Positions 7,559 through 64,000 of a DNA stretch of 64,000 bases are shown here, piece after piece. The stretch comes from Candidatus Nitrotoga fabula (GTDB lineage: Bacteria; Pseudomonadota; Gammaproteobacteria; Burkholderiales; Gallionellaceae). A program made the position numbers and the translations under genes. The DNA is taken from NCBI RefSeq assembly GCF_905221025.1, contig NZ_CAJNBL010000021.1, positions 1-64,000 on the forward strand, read 5' to 3'. Positions within the stretch are counted from its first letter, which is position 1; each line of letters begins with the position of its first letter. The notes under the pieces were generated by a model that saw only the letters and a program-made list of their open reading frames with translations, did no database searches and was not told the DNA's origin.

Positions 7559-8902
7559 TTATTCTTTTTCCAGTGTCCAGAGCCTCCTTAGCAGTTTTTC
7601 GTGTATCCCGCCGAATTCGCCGTTACTCATGATCAGTATATGGTCCCCGGGGCGGGCCGCGGTGGCAATGGCAGCTATCAGTTCATCCATTTGGTCGGTT
7701 ACAATAGCCCGTTGACCCAACGGAGAAAAGATTGCTCTGGCATCCCATCCCAAGCTGGAGTTGTAGCAGAATATCATATCGGCATCGCGGAGACTGGCTG
7801 GCAGGGAATTTCTCATGACTCCCAGTTTCATGGTGTTGGATCGCGGTTCGAGTACCGCCATTATGCGAGCATTTCCAGTTTTCGCGCGCAGCCCTGATAA
7901 GGTTGTTGCAATTGCAGTGGGATGATGGGCGAAATCGTCGTAAACGGTGATACCGTTGACCATTCCGCGTACTTCCATGCGCCGTTTGACATTTTTAAAT
8001 TCTTTTAATGCAGAGAGGCCTTGGGTAACTGGCACACCGGCATGTCGCGCGGCAGAAATTGCTGCAAGTGCGTTGAGACGATTGTGTTCGCCCATTAGAT
8101 CCAGCTGAAGTTTACCATGTGCATTACCTGAAAAAATTATGTGGTTGTGTGTGTCTATGTCCCATCCCCCAGGACAGCCAAATAGTTCCACGGGTGTCCA
8201 GCAGCCGCGTCTGATTACTCGGCTTAATGCCTCCTCTCTTCCGTTACAGATAATCAGCCCGTTACCGGGTATGGTACGAATCAGGTGATGAAATTGCGTT
8301 TCAATGAAATCAAGATCCGGGAAAATGTCTGCATGATCGAATTCCAAATTGTTAAGAATGACGGTACGTGGGTGGTAATGGATGAACTTGGAACGTTTGT
8401 CGAAGAAAGCGGTGTCATATTCATCCGCTTCAATGACAAAGAAGGATGAGTCGGTTAAACGTGCGGAAACTCCAAAATTTTGCGGTACGCCGCCAATCAG
8501 GAATCCAGGTTTCATGCCTGAATATTCCAGCATCCAGGCCAGCATGGAGCTGGTGGTAGTTTTGCCATGGGTTCCTGCGACAGCCAGTACCCATTTATCC
8601 TGCAGTAAATATTGCGCCAGCCATTGTGGTCCGGAAAGGTAGGGCAGGTTGCGATTCAGTATTTCTTCTATTAGTGGATTTCCACGCGAGATTACATTCC
8701 CGATAATAAAAATATCTGGATGAATCCCGATCTGTTCCGGGCTGAAACCTTGAATGAGTTCTATTCCCTGGGCTTCGAGCTGGGTGCTCATTGGTGGATA
8801 AACATTGGCATCGCAGCCGGTGACGCGGTATCCAGCCTGTTTTGCCAATAAGGCGATGCCGCCCATGAAGGTGCCACAGATACCCAGAATATGGATATGC
8901 AT
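7559..8902 (-). CDS. mpl: UDP-MurNAc:L-Ala-gamma-D-Glu-mDAP ligase Mpl
   Basis: Peptidoglycan recycling ligase that attaches the recovered tripeptide to UDP-N-acetylmuramate in the cytoplasm. The order is that of Mur ligases: HILGICGTFMGGIALLAKQ at the N-terminus (Mpl variant of the MurC nucleotide motif), the ATP-binding GTHGKTTTSSM near residue 110, a central EADEYDTAFFDKRSKF segment, and a C-terminal domain with YDDFAHHPTA. About 447 residues, the usual Mpl length. Start at 8902 has GGA about eight bases upstream; the longer open frame adds an unlikely hydrophobic stretch. It starts directly after the DUF486 gene, so they are probably cotranscribed. Confidence 0.93.
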   Translation of the reverse strand: MHIHILGICGTFMGGIALLAKQAGYRVTGCDANVYPPMSTQLEAQGIELIQGFSPEQIGIHPDIFIIGNVISRGNPLIEEILNRNLPYLSGPQWLAQYLLQDKWVLAVAGTHGKTTTSSMLAWMLEYSGMKPGFLIGGVPQNFGVSARLTDSSFFVIEADEYDTAFFDKRSKFIHYHPRTVILNNLEFDHADIFPDLDFIETQFHHLIRTIPGNGLIICNGREEALSRVIRRGCWTPVELFGCPGGWDIDTHNHIIFSGNAHGKLQLDLMGEHNRLNALAAISAARHAGVPVTQGLSALKEFKNVKRRMEVRGMVNGITVYDDFAHHPTAIATTLSGLRAKTGNARIMAVLEPRSNTMKLGVMRNSLPASLRDADMIFCYNSSLGWDARAIFSPLGQRAIVTDQMDELIAAIATAARPGDHILIMSNGEFGGIHEKLLRRLWTLEKE

Positions 8903-8903
8903 A

Positions 8904-9248
8904 TTAAGTCCTAAAAATAAAAAACACTGCACCAATCAGGCATAGGGCGGCATACAGATAGTCCAGTTTTAGTGGTTGGTCCATATATAGCACAGCGAAA
9001 GGTACGAATACCGATAGAGTGATGGCTTCCTGCAAAATTTTCAGTTGCCCGAGGTTGAGTTCAGCAAACCCAATGCGGTTAGCGGGTACCTGCAGCAAAT
9101 ATTCAAATAGCGCAATGCCCCAGCTTGTCAGTGCGGCAATGTACCATGGAGATTGTGATAGGTTTTTGAGGTGGCCATACCAGGCGAAAGTCATGAATAC
9201 ATTTGAAGCCGTCAGGAGCAATGTGGTAAGTAACAATGGATGCGGCAT
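8904..9248 (-). CDS. DUF486 / DMT-like small membrane protein
   Basis: A 114-residue hydrophobic protein with about four membrane segments. It matches the DUF486 family (ASNVFMTFAWYGHLK near the N-terminus, NRIGFAELNLGQLKILQEAITL in the middle), small relatives of drug/metabolite transporters of unknown substrate. The ATG at 9248 is preferred; the frame also opens at a TTG at 9269. It ends one base before the mpl start codon, so the two are translationally close. It lies 180 bases downstream of metH on the same strand. Confidence 0.85.
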   Translation of the reverse strand: MPHPLLLTTLLLTASNVFMTFAWYGHLKNLSQSPWYIAALTSWGIALFEYLLQVPANRIGFAELNLGQLKILQEAITLSVFVPFAVLYMDQPLKLDYLYAALCLIGAVFFIFRT

Positions 9249-9427
9249 AGTATTATTCTGGTCGTTCAATAGTAAAGATCCGGTATTGGGTTAAATAATA
9301 GAGACGATTCGATCCTGTATGAGAAAATTCATGAGCATGCAGAGTGTACGTTGGGAGAACTGCAAATCACAAATAGGGAAAAATTATATATTTTTAGTAA
9401 CTTATTGATACAGAATGCTGCTCCATA

Positions 9428-12400
9428 TTATGTTTCATAATTTAGTACGGGTGCTAGCCAGCGTTCTGTTTCCTCTAGGCTGAGTCCTTTGCGCTGCGCG
9501 TAATCTTTGATTTGATCCTTGTCTATTTTTGCGGTGGCAAAGTATCGTGCCTGTGGGTGAGAAAAAAAGAAGCCGCTTACGCTTGCAGCGGGCATCATGG
9601 CAAAATTTTCCGTCAGGGTAATTCCTGCCTTGCTGGTTGCATCCAGGAGCTCAAACAGGGCACTTTTCTCGGTATGATCAGGGCAAGCCGGGTAGCCTGG
9701 GGCGGGGCGGATTCCACGATATTTTTCGCTGATCAAGTCTTCGTTGCTCATTTCCTCGTCTGCGGCATATCCCCAGAATTCGCGTCGGATGCGGGCATGC
9801 AATAATTCGGCGAATGCCTCTGCCAAACGGTCAGCCAATGCTTTCAGCATTATGCTGCTGTAGTCGTCATGTTTGCGTTCATATTCTGCTACGCGTCCGT
9901 CAATTCCAATGCCGGTAGTGACCGCAAAAGCCCCGATATAATCGGGCATCCCGCTTTCTTTGGGTGCGATGAAATCTCCGAGACTCAGATTGGGTTTGTC
10001 CTCAGGCTTTACCATTTGTTGACGGAGATTGTGCCAGGTCATGGCTACCTGGTTGCGCGTTTCATTCGTGTAAATCTCGATGTCGTCGCTATGGACACTG
10101 TTGGCAGGAAACAGGCCAAAAACAGCATTTGCGCGCAACCATTTTTCTTCTATGATGTGCTTCAGCATGGATTTGGCATCTTGGAACAAGTTGCGCGCAG
10201 CTTCTCCGATAACGTTATCATTAAGAATTTCTGGATATTTCCCAGATAGCTCCCAGGTTTGAAAAAACGGTGTCCAGTCAATGTATGTGCTGATTTCAGA
10301 TAGAGGGTAGTCAATCAGTGTCTGGATACCGATACTGTTGGGTTTTGGTGGGGTGTACTGTGTCCAGTCTGTCTTCAGTCCATGCGCGCGTGCTTCTGCC
10401 AGTGTATAACGCGCACCTTGGGACCTCTTGCCAGCATGAAGTTCGCGCGTTTTGGAATAATCACGTTTTATATCAGCGATGTAATGGTCGTTTAGGGTGC
10501 TGCTCAGCAGGTTGTTGCACACTCCCACGGCCCGTGATGCATCTGTCACATACACGGTTACCCCGCTGGGATAATTGGGTTCGATTTTTACTGCAGTATG
10601 GACTCGTGAAGTAGTTGCGCCGCCAATCAGCAATGGGATGGTGAAACCTTGGCGCTGCATTTCCCGGGCTACATGGGTCATTTCTTCCAGAGAGGGAGTG
10701 ATCAGTCCGGAAAGACCGATTATATCGGCTTGATATTCGCGGGCCGTATCCAGAATTTTCTGGCACGGTACCATTACCCCCATGTTGATTACCTCAAAAT
10801 TGTTGCACTGCAATACTACGGTTACGATGTTTTTCCCGATGTCATGCACATCGCCTTTGACCGTAGCAATGACAATTTTACCTTTGGGTTTGTTGTCACC
10901 TGAGCGGGCTTTTTCTGCTTCAATGAAAGGAACCAGATGTGCAACCGCCTGTTTCATAACACGTGCGGATTTGACCACTTGCGGTAAAAACATTTTACCG
11001 GCACCGAATAGATCTCCTACCTCATTCATGCCGTTCATCAGTACACCCTCGATTACTTTGATCGGATGCGATGCCTGTTGACGTGCTTCTTCTGTATCTT
11101 CCACGATATAGGTATTAATGCCATGTACCAGTGCGTGGGTCAGGCGTTCTTGTACAGTACCCCGCCTCCATGCGAGATCTTCGATCTTGGCCTTGGTTCC
11201 TCCGGTTACGCTATCCGCCATTGCCACCAGTCGTTCACCTGCATCCGGATGGCGGTTCAGCACTACATCCTCTACCGCTTCGCGTAAGTCGCCAGCCAGT
11301 TCATCATATACTCCGAGCTGACCGGCATTTACGATGCCCATGTTGAGCCCCGCCTGTACTGCGTGATAAAGAAACACGGTATGAATGGCTTCACGCATTG
11401 CGTCATTGCCGCGGAAAGAGAAAGATACATTGGATACTCCGCCGCTTACTTTTGCATGAGGCAGATTTTTTCTGATCCAGCGTGTAGCCTCGATAAAGTC
11501 CACTGCATAGTTGTTGTGCTCCTCTATCCCAGTAGCAATGGCAAAAATGTTTGGGTCGAAAATGATATCTTCCGGCGGAAAACCGATCTGGTGTACCAGA
11601 ATGTCATAGCTGCGCTGGCAGATTTCGATTTTTCGCTGTTGTGTGTCAGCCTGGCCCTTTTCGTCAAATGCCATAACCACTGCAGCTGCGCCATAGCGGT
11701 GAATCAGGGTGGCATATCTGATGAATTCGGTTGTGCCTTCTTTCAGACTGATCGAGTTGACAATCGCTTTTCCCTGCACGCATTTAAGTCCTGCTTCAAG
11801 CACGGACCATTTGGAAGAGTCGAGCATGACCGGAACCCGTGAAATATCCGGTTCGGCTGCAATTAGATTAAGGAATTTCGTCATGGCAAACTGTGAATCC
11901 AGCATCGCTTCATCCATGTTGATATCGATAACCTGTGCGCCATTTTCTACTTGCTGCCTGGCAACGTTAACGGCTGCTTGGTAATCCCCTGAGAGGATCA
12001 TGCGTGCAAACATCCGTGAGCCGGTCACATTGGTGCGTTCACCAACATTGACAAACAGTGAATTCTCTCCAATGTTGAATGGCTCTAGGCCAGATAGTCT
12101 GCACATTTTTTCGAGTTGGGGGATTTCGCGCGGAGGAATGCCTTGTAATGCATCAGCAATAGCTTTGATGTGTGCGGGTGTGGTACCGCAGCATCCCCCT
12201 ACGATGTTGACGAAGCCGCTGGTGGCAAATTCCTTAACCAGCCTTGCAGTATGTTCTGGTGATTCATCATAGCCTGTTTCTGATAGTGGATTGGGTAGCC
12301 CTGCGTTTGGATGTGCACTGAGATAAGTGGTTGCAACGCGTGATAATTCTGCTATGTAAGGGCGCATCAGCTCCGCGCCAAGAGCACAATTGAGTCCGAT

Positions 12401-54537: not shown

Positions 54538-55030
54538 GTGATTCAACAAACTGGATTAATACTGTTTACTGTATTGGTTCTCACTGCATGCAGCAATATA
54601 CCCGCACAGAAGGAAGAAACACGCAGTTCCCCAGCTCCAGTGATAGAGTCGAATGGGGTTCAGCGCGCGGAACCCTTGCACCGTTTTGCGAACAGCCCGT
54701 ATTCTGTATTAGGAAAGACCTATATACCCCTAATATCTCCGGGCGGGTACAAAGAGCGCGGTATAGCTTCCTGGTATGGCAGTAAGTTTCATGGCAAGCG
54801 AACTGCAAGTGGAGAAATATACGATATGTATAGCATGTCTGCGGCTCATCCTGTTTTACCTATACCCAGTTATGCGCGTGTAACCAATCTTGCCAACAAA
54901 AAATCGGTAGTGGTTCGGATCAATGATCGTGGCCCGTTCGTGCATGATCGCATCATTGATCTTTCCTACACTGCCGCAGATAAGCTCGGGATTGTCAATA
55001 ATGGTGGTGCTGAAGTTGTGGTGGAAATGG
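54445..55030 (+). repeat. Tandem duplication unit A (leader plus rlpA copy 1)
   Basis: This stretch, from GGGGCAGAAGTGCGCTATAC to about GTGGAAATGG, aligns with 55034-55720. Both units carry the same leader words (TTCAAGATTCATC, GTCTAACAGGG) followed by the lipoprotein start and the double-psi barrel. Unit A is about 102 bp shorter because of an internal gap. Confidence 0.88.
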
Positions 55031-55095
55031 ATAGGACAAGAATGCGCTATACTTCACCTGTTCAAGATTCATCGCTGAATAAAAAAACATATTAA
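54538..55095 (+). CDS. rlpA: RlpA-like lipoprotein, SPOR-less paralogue
   Basis: A 185-residue lipoprotein: signal peptide with lipobox LTAC (Cys at about residue 18), a short linker and an intact double-psi beta-barrel domain (GIASWYGSKFHGKRTASGE, INDRGPFVHDRIIDLS) like that of RlpA, a lytic transglycosylase acting on denuded glycans. The acidic residue in TASGE and the Asp in INDRGP are kept. It lacks the C-terminal SPOR domain: after VVVEM the frame runs into duplicated leader sequence and stops. The start is GTG, versus ATG in copy 2. It arose by tandem duplication and could be functional or decaying. Confidence 0.82.
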   Translation: MIQQTGLILFTVLVLTACSNIPAQKEETRSSPAPVIESNGVQRAEPLHRFANSPYSVLGKTYIPLISPGGYKERGIASWYGSKFHGKRTASGEIYDMYSMSAAHPVLPIPSYARVTNLANKKSVVVRINDRGPFVHDRIIDLSYTAADKLGIVNNGGAEVVVEMDRTRMRYTSPVQDSSLNKKTY

Positions 55096-55720
55096 CGATC
55101 AAGAGTCTAACAGGGAGCCAGGAAAATGAAAATACAAACTGGATGGATACTGTTTGCTGCATTGGTTCTCACTGCATGCAGCAGCACACCTACGCGGAAG
55201 GAAGAAACACGCAGTTCCCCAGCCCCGGTAATAGAATCGAATGCGGTTCCAACCATTTCCGGAACTCAACCCAAGCGTGGCGGATATCTGGAAGGAGATA
55301 GTCCTGGTAAGGACATACCAGCCAATCTGGACTCCATTCCCGACGCGGTTCCGCGCGTGGAACCCTTGCACCGTTTTGCGAACAGCCCCTATTCTGCGTT
55401 AGGAAAGACCTATACCCCGCTAACTTCTCCGGGCGGGTATAAAGAGCGCGGTATCGCTTCCTGGTATGGCAAGAAGTTTCATGGCAAGCGTACTGCAAGT
55501 GGAGAAATATACGATATGTATAGCATGTCTGCGGCTCACCCTGTTTTACCAGTACCCAGCTATGCGCGTGTAACCAATCTTGCCAATAAAAAATCGGTGG
55601 TGGTTCGGATCAATGATCGTGGCCCGTTCATGCATGATCGTATTATTGATCTTTCCTATGCTGCCGCACATAAACTTGGAATTGTTAATAATGGTAGTGC
55701 CGAAGTTGTGGTGGAAGTGG
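55034..55720 (+). repeat. Tandem duplication unit B (leader plus 5' part of rlpA copy 2)
   Basis: Partner of 54445-55030. Within it, GCGGTTCC occurs at 55243-55250 and 55345-55352, exactly 102 bp apart; the interval between them is missing in unit A, as expected for loss by short-repeat recombination or slippage. Confidence 0.88.
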
Positions 55721-56151
55721 AAGGTCTTGTTGCAGAAAATAAGGCTCTTCCTCCGGAGGATACCGAATCTGTAGTGATTACCCCCTTAAAGTCAACCATG
55801 GATTCGGTTGTGGTGGCTCCGATCAAGCCCCCGCCTGCATTTTCTGCTCCGGTTGCTGCGGCAAAGAAAACCAGTCCGGCACTGGTTCCATCTGCCCTGG
55901 GCGGGGAGCTGGCCAGTGGAAATGTCTATCTGCAATTGGGTGCATTCCGGTCGCAGCAGAGTGCGGAAAGCTTTCTTTCACGCATGAATATTGAATTTGA
56001 GGGGAGTGGAAAGCGTGTTGAGCTGTACCAGAAGGACGATGACATGATCCGCATTCATGTTGGTCCTTACCTGTCGCAGGAAGAGGCACGTGCAACTGCA
56101 GAGAGGCTGGAGCCACGCTTGGGCTTCAGGCCCCTGGTAAAATTCCACTAA
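55126..56151 (+). CDS. rlpA: Septal-ring lytic transglycosylase RlpA, full length
   Basis: A 341-residue outer-membrane lipoprotein: lipobox LTAC near residue 18, a linker, the double-psi barrel catalytic domain around residues 110-200 (GIASWYGKKFHGKRTASGE, INDRGPFMHDRIIDLS), a proline/alanine-rich linker and a C-terminal SPOR domain around 265-338 (YLQLGAFRSQQSAESFLSRM, IRIHVGPYLSQEEARATAERL). This is the ancestral arrangement. ATG has an AGGA site. It follows the mre-mrdA-rodA cluster, its normal neighbourhood. Confidence 0.93.
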   Translation: MKIQTGWILFAALVLTACSSTPTRKEETRSSPAPVIESNAVPTISGTQPKRGGYLEGDSPGKDIPANLDSIPDAVPRVEPLHRFANSPYSALGKTYTPLTSPGGYKERGIASWYGKKFHGKRTASGEIYDMYSMSAAHPVLPVPSYARVTNLANKKSVVVRINDRGPFMHDRIIDLSYAAAHKLGIVNNGSAEVVVEVEGLVAENKALPPEDTESVVITPLKSTMDSVVVAPIKPPPAFSAPVAAAKKTSPALVPSALGGELASGNVYLQLGAFRSQQSAESFLSRMNIEFEGSGKRVELYQKDDDMIRIHVGPYLSQEEARATAERLEPRLGFRPLVKFH

Positions 56152-56301: not shown

Positions 56302-57111
56302 ATGACCGTGCAATCCACAATTTCCGTAGGGAATATCAGCCCTTCCCTGTCACTTGATTTTAATGGCAGTAAGGTTTCTGCACGACGCCTTGAACTGCTC
56401 GTTGCAATAAGTCGCGAAAATTCAATTAACGGCGCTGCCAAATCCCTTGGAATGACCTACAAAGGAGCATGGGAAGCGGTGGAAGCGATGAACAACCTTG
56501 CCGGTGTACCTTTAGTAACCGCTCATCAGGGAGGTCGCGGCGGGGGCGGCGCAGAGCTAACCGCAGCGGGCCTGCGGCTGGTGGAAGAAATGGGGCGCAT
56601 TGCGGCATTGCAAGCCCAGTTTTTTTCGGTGCTCGAAAAAGATACAGGCCTGGGGAATAGTTTTGAACTGCTAAAGCGGATCGGGGTAAACACAAGCGCA
56701 CGCAATGCTTTCAGGGGAGTTGTAGAAAATGTGCAAAGAGGGGCGGTGAATGCGGAGGTCACGCTCAGACTGGCCAGTGGCGAAATCCTGCATGCCATGG
56801 TTACCCTTGAAAGCGTCCGTTCCCTGGATTTGCTGCCGGGCAAGGCAGTCTTTGCATTAATCGATGCGTCCTGGGTAATTCTGACGACTGCGGATGAAAA
56901 TGCCAGGGTTTCTGCGCGCAACCGACTTTGCGGGACAGTCAGTCGCATTGAGTGCGGTTCAGTGAATACCGAGGTGCTGCTGGATCTGGGCAATGGCGTG
57001 ACTCTTGCTGCAATTATTACCGATGAGTCACGGAAAATGCTAGGGCTGGTGGTCGGTAGTCGCGCTTGCGTCTTGATCAAGTCGTCCCACATCATTCTCG
57101 GGGTGGATTAA
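56302..57111 (+). CDS. modE: Molybdate-responsive regulator ModE
   Basis: Transcription factor that, with bound molybdate, represses uptake genes. 269 residues: N-terminal winged helix-turn-helix around 20-110 (SARRLELLVAISRENSINGAAKSLGMTYKGAWEAVEAMNN spans it), then two tandem Mop/TOBE domains around 135-200 and 206-268 (SARNAFRGVVENVQRGAVNAEV and SARNRLCGTVSRIECGSVNTEV begin them). ATG 56302 is chosen over an upstream TTG. A strong terminator follows. Two ModE-box-like palindromes lie downstream, in front of the mop gene and the porin gene. Confidence 0.95.
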   Translation: MTVQSTISVGNISPSLSLDFNGSKVSARRLELLVAISRENSINGAAKSLGMTYKGAWEAVEAMNNLAGVPLVTAHQGGRGGGGAELTAAGLRLVEEMGRIAALQAQFFSVLEKDTGLGNSFELLKRIGVNTSARNAFRGVVENVQRGAVNAEVTLRLASGEILHAMVTLESVRSLDLLPGKAVFALIDASWVILTTADENARVSARNRLCGTVSRIECGSVNTEVLLDLGNGVTLAAIITDESRKMLGLVVGSRACVLIKSSHIILGVD

Positions 57112-57121
57112 TCCTGGAATT

Positions 57122-57155
57122 CGGCAGATTTTTCGTCTGCCGGTGTAAATTTTTG
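57122..57155 (+). terminator. Rho-independent terminator after modE
   Basis: CGGCAGA (57122-57128) and TCTGCCG (57136-57142) form a perfect 7-bp stem with a 7-base loop, followed after a short spacer by TTTTT (57151-57155). Confidence 0.75.
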
Positions 57156-57295: not shown

Positions 57296-57319
57296 CGTTA
57301 TATAGTTGTATATATTACG
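57296..57319. promoter_or_regulatory. ModE-box-like operator upstream of mop
   Basis: Left half CGTTATATA (57296-57304) and right half TATATTACG (57311-57319) form an inverted repeat with one mismatch, close to the known ModE half-site CGTTATAT. It lies about 128 bases before the mop start, consistent with an operator over a promoter. Confidence 0.7.
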
Positions 57320-57446
57320 TATGCAGATGCAGATTGGAAAAAATCAGTATCAGCGGGGTGCATGCGGGTTGGAGCCCGGATGTAAATGCATGGGATCGCC
57401 AGATAAAAGAATGGCAAACTCAAATTCGGTTTAAGGGAGATGAGAA

Positions 57447-57875
57447 ATGAGAACCAGTGCTAGAAATATGCTGAAAGGCAGTGTGGAATCCATAGCGATT
57501 GGTGCAGTAAATTCAGAAGTGACATTGAGACTGGGTAATGGCGTGCTGATATATTCAATCATTACCAATGAAAGCGTCACGTCATTGGGCCTTGCGCCAG
57601 GCAGGGAGGCAACTGCGCTGATCAAGTCTTCATGGGTGATACTGACTGCTGCAGATGAAAAAATTGTGACCTCGGCGCGCAACCGGTTGTGCGGGGTGGT
57701 TACAAAAATAGACAGGGGGGCGGTAAATGCCGAAGTGGTGATGGATTTGGGCTACGATACCAGCTTTACCGCAATCATCACCAATGAATCGCTAGCTATG
57801 CTCAAACTGGTTGTGGGTAGTCCGGCATGCGCTCTGGTCAAGGCATCGCATGTGATTCTTGCTATAGAAAAATAA
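57447..57875 (+). CDS. mop: Molbindin (two Mop domains)
   Basis: A 142-residue cytoplasmic protein made of two tandem Mop/TOBE domains (about 1-68 and 73-141), each beginning with an SARN block (SARNMLKGSVESI and SARNRLCGVVTKI) and carrying the KSSWVILT / KASHVILA end. Such molbindins oligomerise and store or buffer molybdate. The two domains closely resemble the C-terminal half of the upstream ModE, suggesting origin by duplication of that part. Preceded by a ModE box and followed by a terminator, so it is a separate, probably molybdate-regulated unit. Confidence 0.93.
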   Translation: MRTSARNMLKGSVESIAIGAVNSEVTLRLGNGVLIYSIITNESVTSLGLAPGREATALIKSSWVILTAADEKIVTSARNRLCGVVTKIDRGAVNAEVVMDLGYDTSFTAIITNESLAMLKLVVGSPACALVKASHVILAIEK

Positions 57876-57894
57876 CAGAAAACAGTGGGATCGG

Positions 57895-57918
57895 AACCGC
57901 AATTTATGCGGTTTTATT
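57895..57918 (+). terminator. Rho-independent terminator after mop
   Basis: AACCGCA (57895-57901) and TGCGGTT (57907-57913) form a perfect 7-bp stem with a 5-base loop, followed by TTATT. It separates mop from the porin gene. Confidence 0.65.
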
Positions 57919-57926
57919 CCGTCTTT

Positions 57927-57950
57927 CGTTATGTAGTTTAGTATATTTAG
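57927..57950. promoter_or_regulatory. ModE-box-like operator upstream of the porin gene
   Basis: CGTTATGTA (57927-57935), then six bases and TATATTTAG, resembles the site at 57296-57319 and the ModE half-site, though the right half is less perfect. It lies 18-40 bases before the porin start codon and just after the mop terminator, where the promoter of the porin-modABC unit must be. Confidence 0.6.
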
Positions 57951-57967
57951 ATTGAGATAATTTTGTT

Positions 57968-59608
57968 ATGATTAAAATTTTTCCAGTCCCAACATGTCGG
58001 ACCATGAATCGGACGGTCTGTAACCCGGTGGCGACAAATTTGTCAGCAAGCCTGTTACCTGCCATCCGGAAATCTGGATTAGAAATTCATGCCGGGATTC
58101 TGGCCGGCTGTCTGCTTATTGCCCCTGCATTTGCGGCTGAGCAGGAAAACATCCAGCAAAAACCGCACGTTGAAGAGTCTGGCCAGAAAGTGCAGGAAAA
58201 AAAAGCCAAACCGCCGGCCAAGCCAACGTATTATGTGCAGTACCGCAGTTCCGGATTGACGCTTCAATCGGATCCTCCGCGTTATGTCAAGCAGGCCAAC
58301 CAGACCTGGCTTAAAGACCAGGGGTGGCAGGATGTGGACTGGCTGGATCTGGGGGTGGAAATCCGGGCGCGCTATGAATATATCAATAACGATTTTCGCA
58401 AAAAAACCGAAACCATAGATGAGCCGTTTCAATTGCGCTCCCGCCTGTATGCGGCCATAAAGAACAAGTTTGATCCGTTGCGCGCCACCTTTGAGTTCCA
58501 GGACTCCCGGAGATATAACAGTCAGTATCCGGATACCAACCTGGAAGTCAACAAGACAGAATTTATCCAGGGGTATGGGGAGCTGTATTTCAAGGACGCG
58601 CTGGGCAAGGACGATCTGGGTACCAATCGTCCGCTCAGTTTGCGGTACGGGCGCCATGCATTCGAGCTGACGGATAAGCGCCTGATTGCAAGAAATGAAT
58701 TCCGTAACACCACGAATAATTTCCAAGGAATACGAGCGCTTCTGGGTTCGAAGAATAGTGACTGGCAGGCAGATTTTTTTGCCTTCAACCCCATTGTTCG
58801 TTTTATGGACCAGACGGACAAGGCCAATGATGCGCAGTGGTTTTACGGTGCCAAGTTTGATTTGCGCAAATGGTCCAAAATAGTGACGTTTCAGCCCTAT
58901 TATTACCTGCTTCAGCAAAACGGCAGCAAGATGAAATATGCTTCCAGCGGAGCTTTTGCCACTGCAGCGGATAAAAAAGACCGTGAAATCCATACGGCCG
59001 GTTTGCGTGCCTATGGGATCGTAGCCGATACCGGACTGGATTGGGATTTGAACTATCTTAAGCAATGGGGCGAGGATGGCGGGCTGAATCAGGACAGCTA
59101 CGGGTATAACATGGAAGCAGGCTATACCTTCGGCAACCATGCGTGGAAACCCCGTTTCATGGCCAATATGGGCTATGCCAGCGGCGATGCGAATCTGACG
59201 GATCAAACCAGTCAGCGTTTTGAGGGCCTGTTCGGATTTGCCAGACCCTGGTCTCACAGTAACTATATTAAGATGGAGAACATACGTGCGGTTAAACTGC
59301 GCGGAGAGTTCAGCCCCACAGCCAACCTGAAAATCGATTTTGGTTACAGCTGGTATGACCTGGCCAGCGCCACGGACAGATGGGCAGCATCCGGCTATCG
59401 TGATACTTCAGGCAAAAGCGGCAAGGAAATAGGCCAGGAATTTGATATTCTCGCGCGATTTCCGGTTACCAAATATTTATCGATGGTGGCGGGATATTCC
59501 TACTTCATGGCCGGAGATTTTGCTGAGGCGCAATCCCAGAAGCAACAGCCCGGGCGGGATAACGACACCCACTATGTCTGGATAGACGCGATGGTAGTCG
59601 CATTTTAA
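57968..59608 (+). CDS. Outer-membrane channel, alginate-export family
   Basis: A 546-residue predicted outer-membrane beta-barrel. A long N-terminal region ends in a signal-peptide-like core with cleavage near APAFAAE (about residue 57); internal ATG 58004 is an alternative start. A Lys/Pro-rich linker follows, then the barrel with alternating strands (WLDLGVEIRARYEY, RSRLYAAIKNK, EFQDSRRY, LRYGRHAFELTDKRLIARNEF) and a terminal Phe. The family match I recognise is the alginate_export barrel, a group with diverse substrates. It is directly followed by modA and preceded by a ModE-like box, so a role in molybdate passage is inferred, not shown. Confidence 0.85.
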   Translation: MIKIFPVPTCRTMNRTVCNPVATNLSASLLPAIRKSGLEIHAGILAGCLLIAPAFAAEQENIQQKPHVEESGQKVQEKKAKPPAKPTYYVQYRSSGLTLQSDPPRYVKQANQTWLKDQGWQDVDWLDLGVEIRARYEYINNDFRKKTETIDEPFQLRSRLYAAIKNKFDPLRATFEFQDSRRYNSQYPDTNLEVNKTEFIQGYGELYFKDALGKDDLGTNRPLSLRYGRHAFELTDKRLIARNEFRNTTNNFQGIRALLGSKNSDWQADFFAFNPIVRFMDQTDKANDAQWFYGAKFDLRKWSKIVTFQPYYYLLQQNGSKMKYASSGAFATAADKKDREIHTAGLRAYGIVADTGLDWDLNYLKQWGEDGGLNQDSYGYNMEAGYTFGNHAWKPRFMANMGYASGDANLTDQTSQRFEGLFGFARPWSHSNYIKMENIRAVKLRGEFSPTANLKIDFGYSWYDLASATDRWAASGYRDTSGKSGKEIGQEFDILARFPVTKYLSMVAGYSYFMAGDFAEAQSQKQQPGRDNDTHYVWIDAMVVAF

Positions 59609-59632
59609 AATGACTTTGTAAAGGAAATTATC

Positions 59633-60409
59633 ATGTTTAAAACAATCACCTTACGTGTTATCGCGCTTGCAGCAGTAATTCTGCTGATCGGTCCTGGCAT
59701 TGCAACGGCCGAGACGATTACCGTCGCCACTGCCGCCAGCATGAAAAATGCAATGACCGATATTGTTCATAAATTTAATGCTGAAAATCAGCAAGACCAG
59801 GTAAAAGCCATTTATGGTTCCTCCGGGAAATTCACTGCACAAATTCAGAATGGTGCGCCTTTCGATATGCTGTTTTCGGCGGACACTAATTTTCCGCAGG
59901 CGCTGAAGAAAGAAGGTTTGACGAGTTCGGATCCGGTAGTTTATGCGATTGGCCGATTGGTCATCTGGTCGTCCACAACCGATGCCAGCAAATTGACTTT
60001 GCAAAAACTGGATGATTCGAATATCCGCAAGGTGGCCATTGCCAACCCGGATGTCGCTCCTTACGGCATGCGAGCCAGGGAAGCCATGAAGGCTGTCGGG
60101 GTATGGGAAAAATTGCAGAGTAAACTTGTGCTTGGCGAGAATATCGAGCACGCGGCGCAGATGGCAAGTTCCGCTGCCGCCGATGCCGCTATAATCGGCT
60201 TGTCGCAAGCACGTATTCCTGCAATGGCAAAACTGGGGTCATACAGCATGATTGATGAGCGCCTGCATGCGTCGTTGGCGCAAGCCTTTGTGATTACCCA
60301 ACGTGCAAGGAATAATGCGCTCGCGCGGAAATTTGCTGCTTATGTTCAGACGCCAGAATCGCAGAAGATACTGGAAAGTTATGGTTTTGTGCTACCAGGG
60401 AAACGCTAG
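59633..60409 (+). CDS. modA: Molybdate-binding periplasmic protein ModA
   Basis: Periplasmic substrate-binding protein of the molybdate ABC importer. 258 residues with a signal peptide ending at GIATAET (about residue 25), followed by VATAASMKNAM and YGSSGKFTAQIQNGAPFDMLFSAD, which carry the oxyanion-coordinating Ser residues, and NPDVAPYGMRAREAM. It starts 24 bases after the porin stop, so they are likely cotranscribed. Confidence 0.96.
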   Translation: MFKTITLRVIALAAVILLIGPGIATAETITVATAASMKNAMTDIVHKFNAENQQDQVKAIYGSSGKFTAQIQNGAPFDMLFSADTNFPQALKKEGLTSSDPVVYAIGRLVIWSSTTDASKLTLQKLDDSNIRKVAIANPDVAPYGMRAREAMKAVGVWEKLQSKLVLGENIEHAAQMASSAAADAAIIGLSQARIPAMAKLGSYSMIDERLHASLAQAFVITQRARNNALARKFAAYVQTPESQKILESYGFVLPGKR

Positions 60410-60423
60410 GGCGGGAAATAATA

Positions 60424-61128
60424 TTGGAATCTATCGGGCAGAATTTCGGTTTGACAGCAGAAGACTGGACAGCGCTTGCACTTACTTTTCGCCTTTGCCT
60501 GTACACGACGATCATTCTGATGATCTTTGCTACCCCTTTGGCCTGGTGGCTGGCTAACGGACGTTCGCTAAGCCGCACGGCCGTGCAGGCGGTGGTGGCA
60601 CTGCCTCTGGTGTTGCCACCGACGGTACTCGGGTTCTATTTGCTGATCGCACTGGGGCCGCGCGGGATAATAGGCGGAACCATGGAAACCCTGGGACTCC
60701 AACATTTCGCCTTCACTTTCGAGGGGATTCTGATTGGCTCGGTGATTTATTCCATGCCGTTTGCCGTACAACCACTGGAGCATGCTTTTTCCAACCTGGG
60801 GAAGCGTCCGGTCGAAGTCGCCGCTTCGCTCGGGGCTGGCGCGATGGATCGACTTTTCAGCGTGATTATTCCGATGGCGAGGCGAGGCTTCGTGGTTGCC
60901 ATAACGCTGACATTTGCCCATACCATGGGTGAATTTGGGGTGGTTCTGATGGTGGGCGGCAATATTCCCGGAGTTACCCATGTGCTTTCGACCACGATTT
61001 ATGGTTATACCGAAAGCATGCAATACGCTGCTGCGGGCAGACTGAGCCTTTTGCTGCTGATTGGTGCTTTTGTTGTGCTGTTCCTGGTTTACTGGCTCAA
61101 CCGAAGTTTTGAGATGGCCAGGCCATGA
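60424..61128 (+). CDS. modB: Molybdate ABC transporter permease ModB
   Basis: Inner-membrane permease, 234 residues, about five or six helices. The EAA loop is clear (EVAASLGAGAMDRLFSVIIPMARRG), as are LPLVLPPTVLGFYLL and HTMGEFGVVLMVGGNIPG. No ATG is available before the first helix; the TTG at 60424 with GGGCGGGA upstream is the likely start. It overlaps modC by four bases. Confidence 0.94.
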   Translation: MESIGQNFGLTAEDWTALALTFRLCLYTTIILMIFATPLAWWLANGRSLSRTAVQAVVALPLVLPPTVLGFYLLIALGPRGIIGGTMETLGLQHFAFTFEGILIGSVIYSMPFAVQPLEHAFSNLGKRPVEVAASLGAGAMDRLFSVIIPMARRGFVVAITLTFAHTMGEFGVVLMVGGNIPGVTHVLSTTIYGYTESMQYAAAGRLSLLLLIGAFVVLFLVYWLNRSFEMARP

Positions 61129-62198
61129 CCTTGTCTGTTACTGCGCGTATCACGCACCCAGGTTTTGTCTTTGATGTAGATGCATGTTGGCCGGTGGAAG
61201 GGGTTACCGTTCTGTTTGGGCGTTCCGGTTCGGGGAAAACCACCCTGCTGCGCCTGATTGCCGGTCTGGAGAGGCCCAAAAAAAACGGGCGGGTCAGTTT
61301 TTGTGGTCAGTCCTGGCTGGACGGGCGTCATTGGGTTCCATTGCATCGGCGCCGGATCGGCATGGTATTTCAGGAGGCAAGCCTGTTTTCGCACCTGTCG
61401 GTACGCCAGAATCTCCTGTATGGCTATCAACGTACGCCGGCTGCCGAGCGCAAGCTGGATCTGGAAGAAGTGGTTGACATGCTTGCTATCGAGAATCTGA
61501 TCGGGCGAAATGTGGGCCAGCTTTCCGGCGGGGAGCGGCAGCGTATTGCGCTGGGACGTGCCCTGCTGACTAGCCCGCGACTGCTGCTGATGGATGAACC
61601 GCTTTCCGCTCTGGACAGTCAGTCGAAGCGCGAGATCCTTCCATTTCTGCAGCGTCTGGTCGAACAGGCCGGTATCCCGATCATATATGTCACTCATGCA
61701 CCCGCGGAAGTGGAACGTCTGGCAGATCGGGTGGTGTTTTTGCGCGATGGGGGTATAGATTGCATAGAAACGCTGAAGCAGACCCTATCGAGACCGGATT
61801 CTCCCTTGTTTAACGATCAGGGCGTGGTGTCGGTCATAGAAGGCCGTCCGGAACAGAAAGAACATGGGTTAACCGCTTTTCATGTCGGGAAGGACATTTT
61901 CTGGTTGAGTCTCCAGGTTCACGCGGATGCCGCAGGCAGGACACAGCGCTTGCGCATACTTGCCAGGGATGTCGGCATCGCTCTCTCCAGGCCGGAGGGG
62001 ACCAGTCTGTCGAACATTCTGCCGGTAACCATACAGCGCATAGACTCTGTCCGGGATGGACATGTGCTGCTTGGGCTACAATTGGGGGGAGGGCAAAATC
62101 TGTTCGCAGAAATCACTGCATGGTCCTGTGAGCGGCTGAAATTACGCACGGGAATTGCAGTGTATGCAATGATCAAATCAGTCGCGCTGGCAGAGTAA
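61125..62198 (+). CDS. modC: Molybdate ABC transporter ATPase ModC
   Basis: Cytoplasmic ATPase energising ModB. 357 residues: Walker A GRSGSGKTTLLRLIAG around 33-48, Q-loop MVFQEASLFSHLSV, signature LSGGERQRIALGRALL, Walker B LLLMDEPLSALD, H-loop YVTHAPAEVERLADR, and a C-terminal TOBE/Mop domain that binds molybdate and gives trans-inhibition in this family. It closes the porin-modABC unit. Confidence 0.96.
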   Translation: MTLSVTARITHPGFVFDVDACWPVEGVTVLFGRSGSGKTTLLRLIAGLERPKKNGRVSFCGQSWLDGRHWVPLHRRRIGMVFQEASLFSHLSVRQNLLYGYQRTPAAERKLDLEEVVDMLAIENLIGRNVGQLSGGERQRIALGRALLTSPRLLLMDEPLSALDSQSKREILPFLQRLVEQAGIPIIYVTHAPAEVERLADRVVFLRDGGIDCIETLKQTLSRPDSPLFNDQGVVSVIEGRPEQKEHGLTAFHVGKDIFWLSLQVHADAAGRTQRLRILARDVGIALSRPEGTSLSNILPVTIQRIDSVRDGHVLLGLQLGGGQNLFAEITAWSCERLKLRTGIAVYAMIKSVALAE

Positions 62199-62296: not shown

Positions 62297-62968
62297 TCAG
62301 GTCGTTTTATGATAGACGGTGGTATCACCAGCCAGCCTGGTGTCAGCAGTTCCGGGCAGGGAAGGTTCGCCGGAATTGGTCAGAGAATCCGTTTTCGCCT
62401 GATTCTGTTGATCATATACCGACTTGAGATAGCGTTGTATTTCCCCGCTCGTGGTATGAACCGGGGTTGCCTTTTCAACATTCCGGATCGTGGCATTTGC
62501 GCCATGTTCAACGAGCAGCCGCGCAGATTCCAGATTTCCCACCTTGTGCAGAGCAGTGTTCCCCCTTTTAATGATCATGCTTCCCGTTACCAGCTGTACA
62601 TTCGGGTCTGCACCCTCATCCAGCAAGCGTTGCACTACTTCGGGAAAATCGACCCATATGTATAGTGCGGTCAAACCATCTTTATCCTGGAATTTGGCAT
62701 TCGCGCCATGATCAATTAAAAATACGGCGAGACCAGGGTCATTCACGTCGAATAACGGGGGGCGATTATTATAATCGACCAGATTGGGATCTGCCCCATG
62801 TTCGATTAACAGTCGGGCTGCCTCAATGCTTTCGGCATAGTGAAGTGCCGTTTTTCCGAAAAAATTCTGATGATTAATATCCAGGCCCAGCTGGATTGCA
62901 TTCCTGATCCCATCCAGATCGTTGGCCATTGTCGCGTCGATTAGGGCTTCATCGGGTTCATTTTGCAT
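62297..62968 (-). CDS. Ankyrin-repeat protein
   Basis: A 223-residue soluble protein composed of about four to five ankyrin repeats over residues 6-180. The typical TALHYAES..ARLLIEHGADPN, FLIDHGANAK, RLLDEGADPN and TALHKVGNLESARLLVEHGANA motifs are clear. The C-terminal 45 residues are polar and probably disordered. It has no signal peptide, so it should act in the cytoplasm as a protein-binding scaffold. It is convergent with modC and lies between the molybdate uptake genes and moeA; whether it is related to that pathway is unknown. Confidence 0.88.
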   Translation of the reverse strand: MQNEPDEALIDATMANDLDGIRNAIQLGLDINHQNFFGKTALHYAESIEAARLLIEHGADPNLVDYNNRPPLFDVNDPGLAVFLIDHGANAKFQDKDGLTALYIWVDFPEVVQRLLDEGADPNVQLVTGSMIIKRGNTALHKVGNLESARLLVEHGANATIRNVEKATPVHTTSGEIQRYLKSVYDQQNQAKTDSLTNSGEPSLPGTADTRLAGDTTVYHKTT

Positions 62969-63168: not shown

Positions 63169-64000
63169 TTAATCTAAAAAAGGTTGAACCAGGACAGTAC
63201 TCCCTGCCTCAACGCTTCCTTGCGACGCAGGTAATACGATGTAGCTGTTTGCCTTGCTCATTGAGCTGAGAATGCCGGAGCACTGGGTACCCGTGGTGCG
63301 TACGGTCCATGAGCCATCCGGATCCTTGCTGAGAATGCCGCGCTGGAATTCGGTTCGCCCGGGAACCTTGCGGATGGGGCTGGTGCAAGTGGCCTGGAAT
63401 TCTATGGTAAGCCTGGGTTGCTGCCCCATCAGAATGCGTAATGCATCGCGGACAAACTGCTGAAAAGTTACCATGACTGCGACTGGATTGCCGGGCAACC
63501 CGAAAAAATGACAGGTGCCAATCTTGCCATAAGCAAGAGGTTTTCCAGGTTTCATCGCTATTTTCCAGAATACAACTTCTCCGATTTCTGTGAGCAGTTG
63601 CTTGATATAGTCGGCCTCACCTACGGAAACTCCACCACTCGTGATAATGGCATCCGTCCGGGATGCGGCATCCAGCAATGCCTCCTTGAGGCTGGCTTTG
63701 TCATCACGAATGGTGCCCATGTCGACAATTTCGACCCCAAGCTCGCCCAGCATCCCCAGCAGGGAGTAGCGATTGCTGTTGTAGATTTTCCCGGGAGCCA
63801 GTTGAGTTCCTGGTTCCTGTAATTCATCGCCGGTCGAAAACAGCGCGACTTTTAATTTATGGTAAACGGTGACATCACTAAAGCCAAGCGAAGCCAGCAG
63901 GCCCATTTCGGCGGGACGAATGATTTGTCCTTTGGTCAGCACAGTGGAATTCTGTGCAATGTCTTCCCCAATCAGGCGAATGTTCTGGCCTCGACGATGC
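63169..64000 (-). CDS. moeA: Molybdopterin molybdenumtransferase MoeA (partial)
   Basis: Inserts molybdate into adenylylated molybdopterin. The gene runs off the right edge of the window, so its N-terminus is missing; the frame stays open to base 64000 (RRGQNIRLIGEDIAQNST precedes the first internal start). About 277 residues are present, with PAEMGLLASLGF, VALFSTGDEL, the GGVSVGEADYIK and FFGLPGNPVAVMVTFQQFV signatures and the C-terminal beta domain. Its position next to modEABC couples molybdate uptake to cofactor synthesis. Confidence 0.95.
   Translation of the reverse strand, partial: HRRGQNIRLIGEDIAQNSTVLTKGQIIRPAEMGLLASLGFSDVTVYHKLKVALFSTGDELQEPGTQLAPGKIYNSNRYSLLGMLGELGVEIVDMGTIRDDKASLKEALLDAASRTDAIITSGGVSVGEADYIKQLLTEIGEVVFWKIAMKPGKPLAYGKIGTCHFFGLPGNPVAVMVTFQQFVRDALRILMGQQPRLTIEFQATCTSPIRKVPGRTEFQRGILSKDPDGSWTVRTTGTQCSGILSSMSKANSYIVLPASQGSVEAGSTVLVQPFLD

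Follow-up and report, generated by a model that had tools for sequence, protein, structure and literature searches.

The window analysed here is the whole stretch of 64,000 nucleotides from contig NZ_CAJNBL010000021.1 of Candidatus Nitrotoga fabula, whose genome spans 2.30 Mb in 44 contigs. It contains a cluster of molybdate genes in which a gene for an outer-membrane barrel of the Alginate_exp family, referred to below as the porin, is located directly upstream of modABC, the genes for a molybdate transporter of the ATP-binding cassette (ABC) type. Genes for a ModE-type regulator and a stand-alone molbindin, Mop, precede the porin, and palindromes resembling the ModE box lie in front of both mop and the porin. 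The features of the locus are as follows:

56302-57111, + strand: modE, ModE-type regulator with HTH_1 (3.5e-10) and two TOBE domains (1.6e-32)
57121-57143, + strand: hairpin 3' of modE, probable terminator (9-bp stem, fold z -2.9)
57296-57319, + strand: ModE-box-like palindrome 5' of mop, CGTTATATAGTTGTATATATTACG (16/20 to the E. coli consensus)
57447-57875, + strand: mop, stand-alone molbindin with two TOBE/Mop domains (TIGR00638, 144.9 bits, two stretches)
57887-57920, + strand: hairpin in the mop-porin gap, probable terminator (-16.6 kcal/mol, z -3.5)
57927-57950, + strand: ModE-box-like palindrome 17 nt 5' of the porin start, CGTTATGTAGTTTAGTATATTTAG (16/20 to the E. coli consensus)
57968-59608, + strand: porin, 18-strand Alginate_exp/AlgE-type outer-membrane barrel (PF13372), first gene of a presumed porin-modABC operon
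59633-60409, + strand: modA, periplasmic molybdate-binding protein (TIGR01256, 184.8 bits, cut-off 62.5)
60424-61128, + strand: modB, molybdate ABC permease (TIGR02141, 209 bits, cut-off 182.6)
61125-62198, + strand: modC, molybdate ABC ATPase with a C-terminal TOBE domain (TIGR02142, 380.2 bits, cut-off 285.05)

ModA, ModB and ModC all score above the curated TIGRFAM cut-offs and are encoded in one gene run, and the porin matches PF13372 at 319.9 bits (E 2.8e-95, curated cut-off 25.2). The genome's ModE protein contains both DNA-binding and molybdate-binding domains; its ModE_repress domain, at 89.8 bits, falls below the curated cut-off of 98.5, and the full-length ModE model PRK10676 scores 159.2 (cut-off 369). 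An earlier note on this DNA, made from the letters alone, had described the two palindromes, which are present exactly as claimed, and a barrel gene within 24 bases of modA, which agrees with the 24 bases that we find between porin stop and modA start. On its further proposal of separate terminators, folds are present at the ends of modE and mop, and hairpin-and-T sequences resembling that at 57887-57920, some of them imperfect, were seen by eye 5' of the porin in orthologs; however, a terminator scan of the window returned 8 sites as compared with 7.3 in shuffles, which is no excess, and did not list the 57887-57920 hairpin, and the fold after modC is weaker (z -1.7). Given the hairpins 3' of modE and mop, the genes look like three units, namely modE, mop and porin-modABC.

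Recurrence of the porin-modA pair and of the ModE-like box

Two checks that the earlier note had named, conservation of the porin-modA link in relatives and recurrence of ModE sites upstream of modA-linked porins, both gave positive results. The porin matched in 17 of 150 genomes of the host's family, and the DNA surrounding the hits, at most 17.5 kb per stretch, was compared by tblastn with the six genes of the locus. By this comparison modA follows the porin, approximately 20-190 nt on, in 13 other genomes of the Nitrotoga genus. When 19 genus genomes were searched for ModA, it was present in 14, our own included, and in each it is located after the porin (14/14). The five genomes without ModA (G349, G358, G361, G370 and G373) also lack the mod-linked porin, G373 carrying an unlinked porin; four of them are 71-91% complete and G349 is 97% complete. 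Short ModA-like pieces occur elsewhere in G346, G355 and G313.

Beyond the genus, a scan of named genomes provided 73 porin loci, which were typed by tblastn, with families confirmed for selected members only. Eleven of these are Nitrotoga or Nitrotoga-like and mod-linked. Two unjoined contig ends from one Methylotenera bin encode part of the porin followed by modABC (L145) and a short ModE followed by part of the porin (L155). Two Myxococcaceae loci (L158 and L160) have the order porin-modABC, and a ModB-type permease is encoded downstream of the porin in L161 and L163. Genes for a sulfate-binding protein or cysTWA are found near 33 of the 73 loci, including both Nevskia loci, where they are about 3 kb off and divergent, and neither mod nor sulfate genes are found at 23/73. 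Genome G687 holds two arrangements, short ModE-porin-modAB and porin-sulfate-binding protein. Homologs are present in 153 of 201 genomes of its family (E<=0.001), and as a PF02461 (PmoA/AmoA) protein was detected in 10/10 of the family's genomes checked, its probable identity is Methylomonadaceae, a family of methanotrophs; we refer to it as the pmoA family. Among its best 30 loci (the query's own included), ranked by similarity to the mod-linked porin and hence not a random sample, modA is next in 26 within 1.5-kb flanks. A further 20 loci picked down the list comprise 16 with modA next, one with sulfate genes and three with neither, bringing the total to 42/50 porin loci followed by modA. 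Linkage to one oxyanion importer, as would be expected of a substrate-dedicated oxyanion porin, is conserved.

The E. coli ModE consensus is ATCGNTATATA-N6-TATATANCGAT in the excerpts of PMC545781 that concern it. Apart from the two palindromes, no site in the window reaches 15/20 against this consensus with its 6-base spacer. A degenerate pattern fitted to both palindromes, with up to 3 mismatches, matched only these two places in the genome, and the reversed pattern matched none; since the pattern was derived from the two sites, this search shows their uniqueness and not their independence. The 61-base mop-box DNA, searched in 21 genomes (our own and 20 of the order), matched our own genome alone.

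For comparison across loci we scored a fixed region from -260 to +120, a box being a score of at least 15/20, a threshold picked after a first scoring round had been seen. The comparison took 18 of the 22 named Methylophilaceae sulfate-linked loci and left out four Myxococcota loci. Boxes were present at 13/13 mod-linked porins of the Nitrotoga genus, 22/26 of the pmoA family and 1/1 of Methylotenera, as against 0/10 Nitrotoga-genus paralogs, 0/5 pmoA-family loci without mod genes and 0/18 sulfate-linked Methylophilaceae loci. The totals are therefore 36/40 mod-linked versus 0/33 sulfate-linked or unlinked loci (Fisher 1e-16, a value that ignores kinship and follows a post hoc threshold). Wherever the upstream DNA is readable at the Nitrotoga-genus loci, the box is found just 5' of the porin, past the mop-end hairpin (13/13); L072 starts inside the gene. 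Myxococcaceae locus L160 has, instead of a ModE box, a gene for a regulator with an XRE-type helix-turn-helix (HTH) and a PBP_like domain 5' of the porin. Judged from these predicted sites, regulation of the porin looks dedicated to the Mod system.

Two observations concern mop itself. In L077 (also listed as L106) a second full-length ModE-like gene occupies the position of the window's stand-alone mop, and immediately 5' of mop a fragment of the ModE HTH is found in L054, L055 and L057. Mop has the look of a ModE copy from which the DNA-binding half has been lost.

Sulfate- and tungstate-linked relatives

Our own genome encodes a close paralog of the porin on contig C41 (57% identical) and a distant third PF13372 protein on C44; identity to the sulfate-linked paralog is about 55-60%. 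The C41 paralog sits between two sulfate-binding proteins, the second 11 nt downstream, with cysTWA approximately 4 kb further. These two proteins (L062:5484-6497 and 8860-9864) differ from one another, and both also pass the cut-off for the thiosulfate-binding protein CysP; it is possible that the pair divides sulfate and thiosulfate. Directly 5' of the C41 porin we noted by eye a 71-residue TOBE-like open reading frame (ORF; L062:6926-7141), and weak mop matches (36-39%) lie just 5' of the porin in L063, L066, L071, L073 and L074. The TOBE-like ORF before the sulfate-linked porin parallels mop before the mod-linked one.

Two profiles were searched class-wide. A Nitrotoga-like profile at E<=1e-60 found 2/369 genomes, and a profile of pmoA-family and two myxobacterial porins at E<=1e-40 found 13/369, our own and G687 included. 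In L204, L207, L208 and L210 the porin is directly 5' of a gene for a protein with TupA as its sole NCBIfam match (E 1e-68 to 1e-72); as the scores of 232-244 bits compare with an equivalog cut-off of 400, we label these proteins TupA-like only. The L210 porin contains in-frame stops. A TupB-like permease is divergent from the porin in L201, L205 has a weak permease match, and no tup-, mod- or sulfate-type genes are present on the short stretches of L202, L203, L206, L209, L212, L213, L217 and L218. L204 and L208 encode a ModE-type HTH fused to a PBP_like domain, divergent from the porin.

In a 42-row tree the mod- and sulfate-linked porins of the Nitrotoga genus form one clade (96/100), which stands beside a mostly sulfate-linked Methylophilaceae clade (join 89/89, not starred). 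The Methylotenera mod-linked porin is nested within the Methylophilaceae clade (98/98), and the pmoA-family and myxobacterial mod-linked porins form a separate clade (100/100). The starred branches can be reconciled only with three or more gains or losses of the 'mod' label, in the Nitrotoga genus, in Methylotenera and in the pmoA-family/myxobacterial clade. A 95-row quick tree, which gave long-branch warnings, is concordant. As the tree is unrooted and does not tell gain from loss, the direction of change is a matter of inference; most likely the mod-linked pore of Nitrotoga arose as a duplicate of the sulfate-linked one, its close relative. We also considered whether the Nitrotoga-genus mod-linked porins fall outside a single clade: the trees split off L106 and L107, but joining them to the others was not rejected (p-AU 0.455).

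The AlphaFold2 model of the porin is an 18-strand barrel with a mean predicted local distance difference test (pLDDT) score of 82.9, residues 1-79 scoring below 50, and the sulfate-linked paralog L103 is modelled as a similar barrel (pLDDT 81.5). The best solved match to the porin model is AlgE (Foldseek E 1.4e-17, Z 30.3, 12-14% identity), with the OprD/Occ porins next, in a list of matches from which absence does not exclude a family. A sequence search of solved structures gave a single match, at E 0.48. We sought a fixed specificity switch by comparing 14 mod-linked sequences of the Nitrotoga genus with 10 paralogs, and found none, there being only three near-consistent differences, at positions 53, 198 and 542; two of the mod-linked sequences, L076 and L077, are diverged, which lowers this count.

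Other genes flank the locus. Genes that read by eye as moeA and moaA are located downstream and convergent with modABC (window 63169-64000 on the minus strand, and L221:1173-3701 on the minus strand), with an ankyrin-like ORF (62297-62968) between modABC and these genes. Just 5' of modE lie two tandem, closely similar lipoprotein-like ORFs (54538-55095 and 55126-56151), which look like a tandem duplication.

The porin as a candidate molybdate pore

The explanation that we favour, with a probability of about 0.78, is that the porin is a ModE-repressed outer-membrane molybdate pore, drawn from a family of pores for XO4(2-) anions and made together with ModABC. On this reading of the gene order and predicted sites, porin-modABC would be transcribed as a single unit under repression by ModE in its molybdate-loaded form. 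At low molybdate, ModE would leave the box at 57927-57950, and pore and importer would be produced together; molybdate, and probably tungstate and other XO4(2-) anions, would then diffuse through the AlgE/OprD-type pore and be caught by ModA behind it. ModBC would import the molybdate, Mop would buffer it, and loaded ModE would shut both units. The pore itself would be a generic passive XO4(2-) channel whose expression is tied to the co-transcribed importer, its relatives partnering sulfate (Sbp-CysTWA), molybdate (ModABC) or tungstate (TupA-like) systems, and substrate discrimination probably lies in the binding protein rather than in the pore. Two pore copies under two regulators would allow molybdate permeability to be raised without induction of sulfate uptake.

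Several observations weigh against this interpretation. Eight of the 50 pmoA-family loci lack modA next on the stretch examined, one of them having sulfate genes instead; in 3 of the 42 with modA (L195, L225 and L228) the gap is approximately 0.9-1.2 kb; 4/26 mod-linked porins of this family score below 15; and in the first box scoring none of four Myxococcota mod-linked porins had a ModE box 5' of the gene. In an order-wide sample 18/300 genomes, our own included, have a porin homolog. Outside the family, modA was found near no porin of the order, either in 1.5-kb flanks or in 12 longer stretches (L078-L089), and several of the order-wide stretches bear sulfate genes. Molybdopterin-enzyme genes (PF00384) are present in 19/19 genus genomes, including the five without ModA, so the porin-mod system is not strictly required, although completeness is 71-91% for four of those five. 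Finally, with only three near-consistent positions we do not claim molybdate selectivity.

This last point bears on the earlier note's suggestion of a dedicated molybdate or tungstate channel: the gene order and predicted ModE site agree with it, while selectivity is not borne out by so similar a paralog. A pore that itself separates MoO4(2-)/WO4(2-) from sulfate, for example by an arginine-lined constriction fitting the larger anion, is in our view unlikely. Retention of both sulfate and molybdate paralogs in our own genome, G687, L165 and L167 would be odd if a generic pore sufficed, and many arginines are invariant or nearly so in the family alignments. The conserved arginines are, however, also found in sulfate-linked members, and the near-fixed differences within the Nitrotoga genus number just three; a literature search on the pore arginines of AlgE found nothing. 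It is possible, if doubtful, that a general anion porin was co-opted by the Mod regulon for permeability, the link being one of regulation with no oxyanion binding site. The OprD/Occ fold class and the few positions at which the paralogs consistently differ would fit such an origin, but the neighbours are repeatedly of one chemical class, the sulfate, molybdate and tungstate transporters, which is unexpected for a non-specific porin.

Passage of molybdate in chelated form, bound to a molybdophore or a catecholate, in place of free molybdate is very improbable. Some bacteria do release molybdate-binding catechols; against this, the barrel is predicted to be of the AlgE/OprD class and has no TonB-receptor domain match, chelator genes not having been part of the search. 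As to an AlgE-like exporter or polysaccharide secretin placed before modABC by chance, the name of the Pfam family and the nearest solved structure would suggest it, and the earlier note's assignment to the alginate_export family applies to family (PF13372) and fold only; an alginate or exopolysaccharide gene context, though, is absent. With 12-14% identity to AlgE, molybdenum genes adjoining and many relatives beside oxyanion importers, we regard this alternative as scarcely credible; chance adjacency does not account for the 14/14 linkage and its recurrence elsewhere.

A wider proposal is rather likely to hold: that PF13372 includes a family of outer-membrane XO4(2-) pores, widespread but so far unrecognised, each with its own importer and regulator (TOBE protein-porin-Sbp-CysTWA for sulfate, ModE-Mop-porin-ModABC for molybdate, and ModE-like/PBP regulator-porin-TupA-like for tungstate), that these pores have repeatedly swapped partners, probably through a duplicated sulfate pore in the case of Nitrotoga and Methylotenera, and that high-affinity uptake of trace oxyanions by these bacteria would span three compartments, with regulation at the outer-membrane step. 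Proteins annotated as 'alginate export' in methylotrophs, pmoA-bearing bacteria and nitrite oxidisers would then be re-annotated, and the sulfate- and tungstate-linked sisters would offer a natural set for studying the preference of a barrel for a single XO4(2-) anion.

Contig C25 of our own genome encodes a 1169-residue molybdopterin enzyme and, beside it, a 385-residue ORF whose cysteines resemble those of Fe-S proteins; we take the two to be NxrA and NxrB. The single-contig genus genomes G346 and G355 have three copies each of the 1169-residue enzyme, probably NxrA. Nitrotoga lives by nitrite oxidoreductase (NXR), a molybdenum enzyme assigned to the type II dimethyl sulfoxide reductase family of molybdopterin enzymes in the Nitrotoga fabula paper (PMC6050957), and the words 'porin' and 'outer membrane' are absent from that paper's main text. 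As NXR needs molybdenum, nitrification could be held back by the supply of this metal where molybdate is present only in traces.

Molybdate import is usually told from ModA onward, with passage across the outer membrane left to general porins. A ModE-controlled pore, if true, would supply this missing step and make it testable. As in the ModE regulons and modABC of E. coli and Geobacter, in the relevant excerpts of PMC545781, a ModE-type box precedes the molybdate operon; in contrast, modDABC is listed there for Geobacter with no porin. An outer-membrane partner in molybdate acquisition has been proposed in the type VI secretion system (T6SS)-ModA-IcmP route of P. aeruginosa, where IcmP is a metalloproteinase outer-membrane protein and partner of secreted ModA, but the parts of PMC8602904 on this route mention no pore transcribed together with modABC. 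Among the open-licence PMC papers that our searches listed, none describes a PF13372-family porin for molybdate, sulfate or tungstate. The alginate exporter AlgE of Pseudomonas aeruginosa (PDB 3rbh and 4afk) shares the closest solved fold and the Alginate_exp match; the porin differs in its low identity, its location beside modE, mop and modABC instead of exopolysaccharide genes, and its predicted role in import of a small anion. The OprD/Occ porins are substrate-preferring small-molecule pores, and OpdK and OccK2 have a similar barrel (Z about 26-29), but our porin matches only PF13372 in Pfam and its neighbours are oxyanion ABC systems. In the way that it would work, the pore resembles OprP, OprO and PhoE, phosphate porins of the Pho regulon, of which OprP and PhoE represent a known kind, the oxyanion porin induced by scarcity of its substrate. 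The porin is distinguished from these by its sole match to PF13372, by a different regulator and by molybdate, sulfate or tungstate in place of phosphate, so that what is new here, as far as our searches show, is the substrate class, the regulator and, within the literature searched, an undescribed subfamily.

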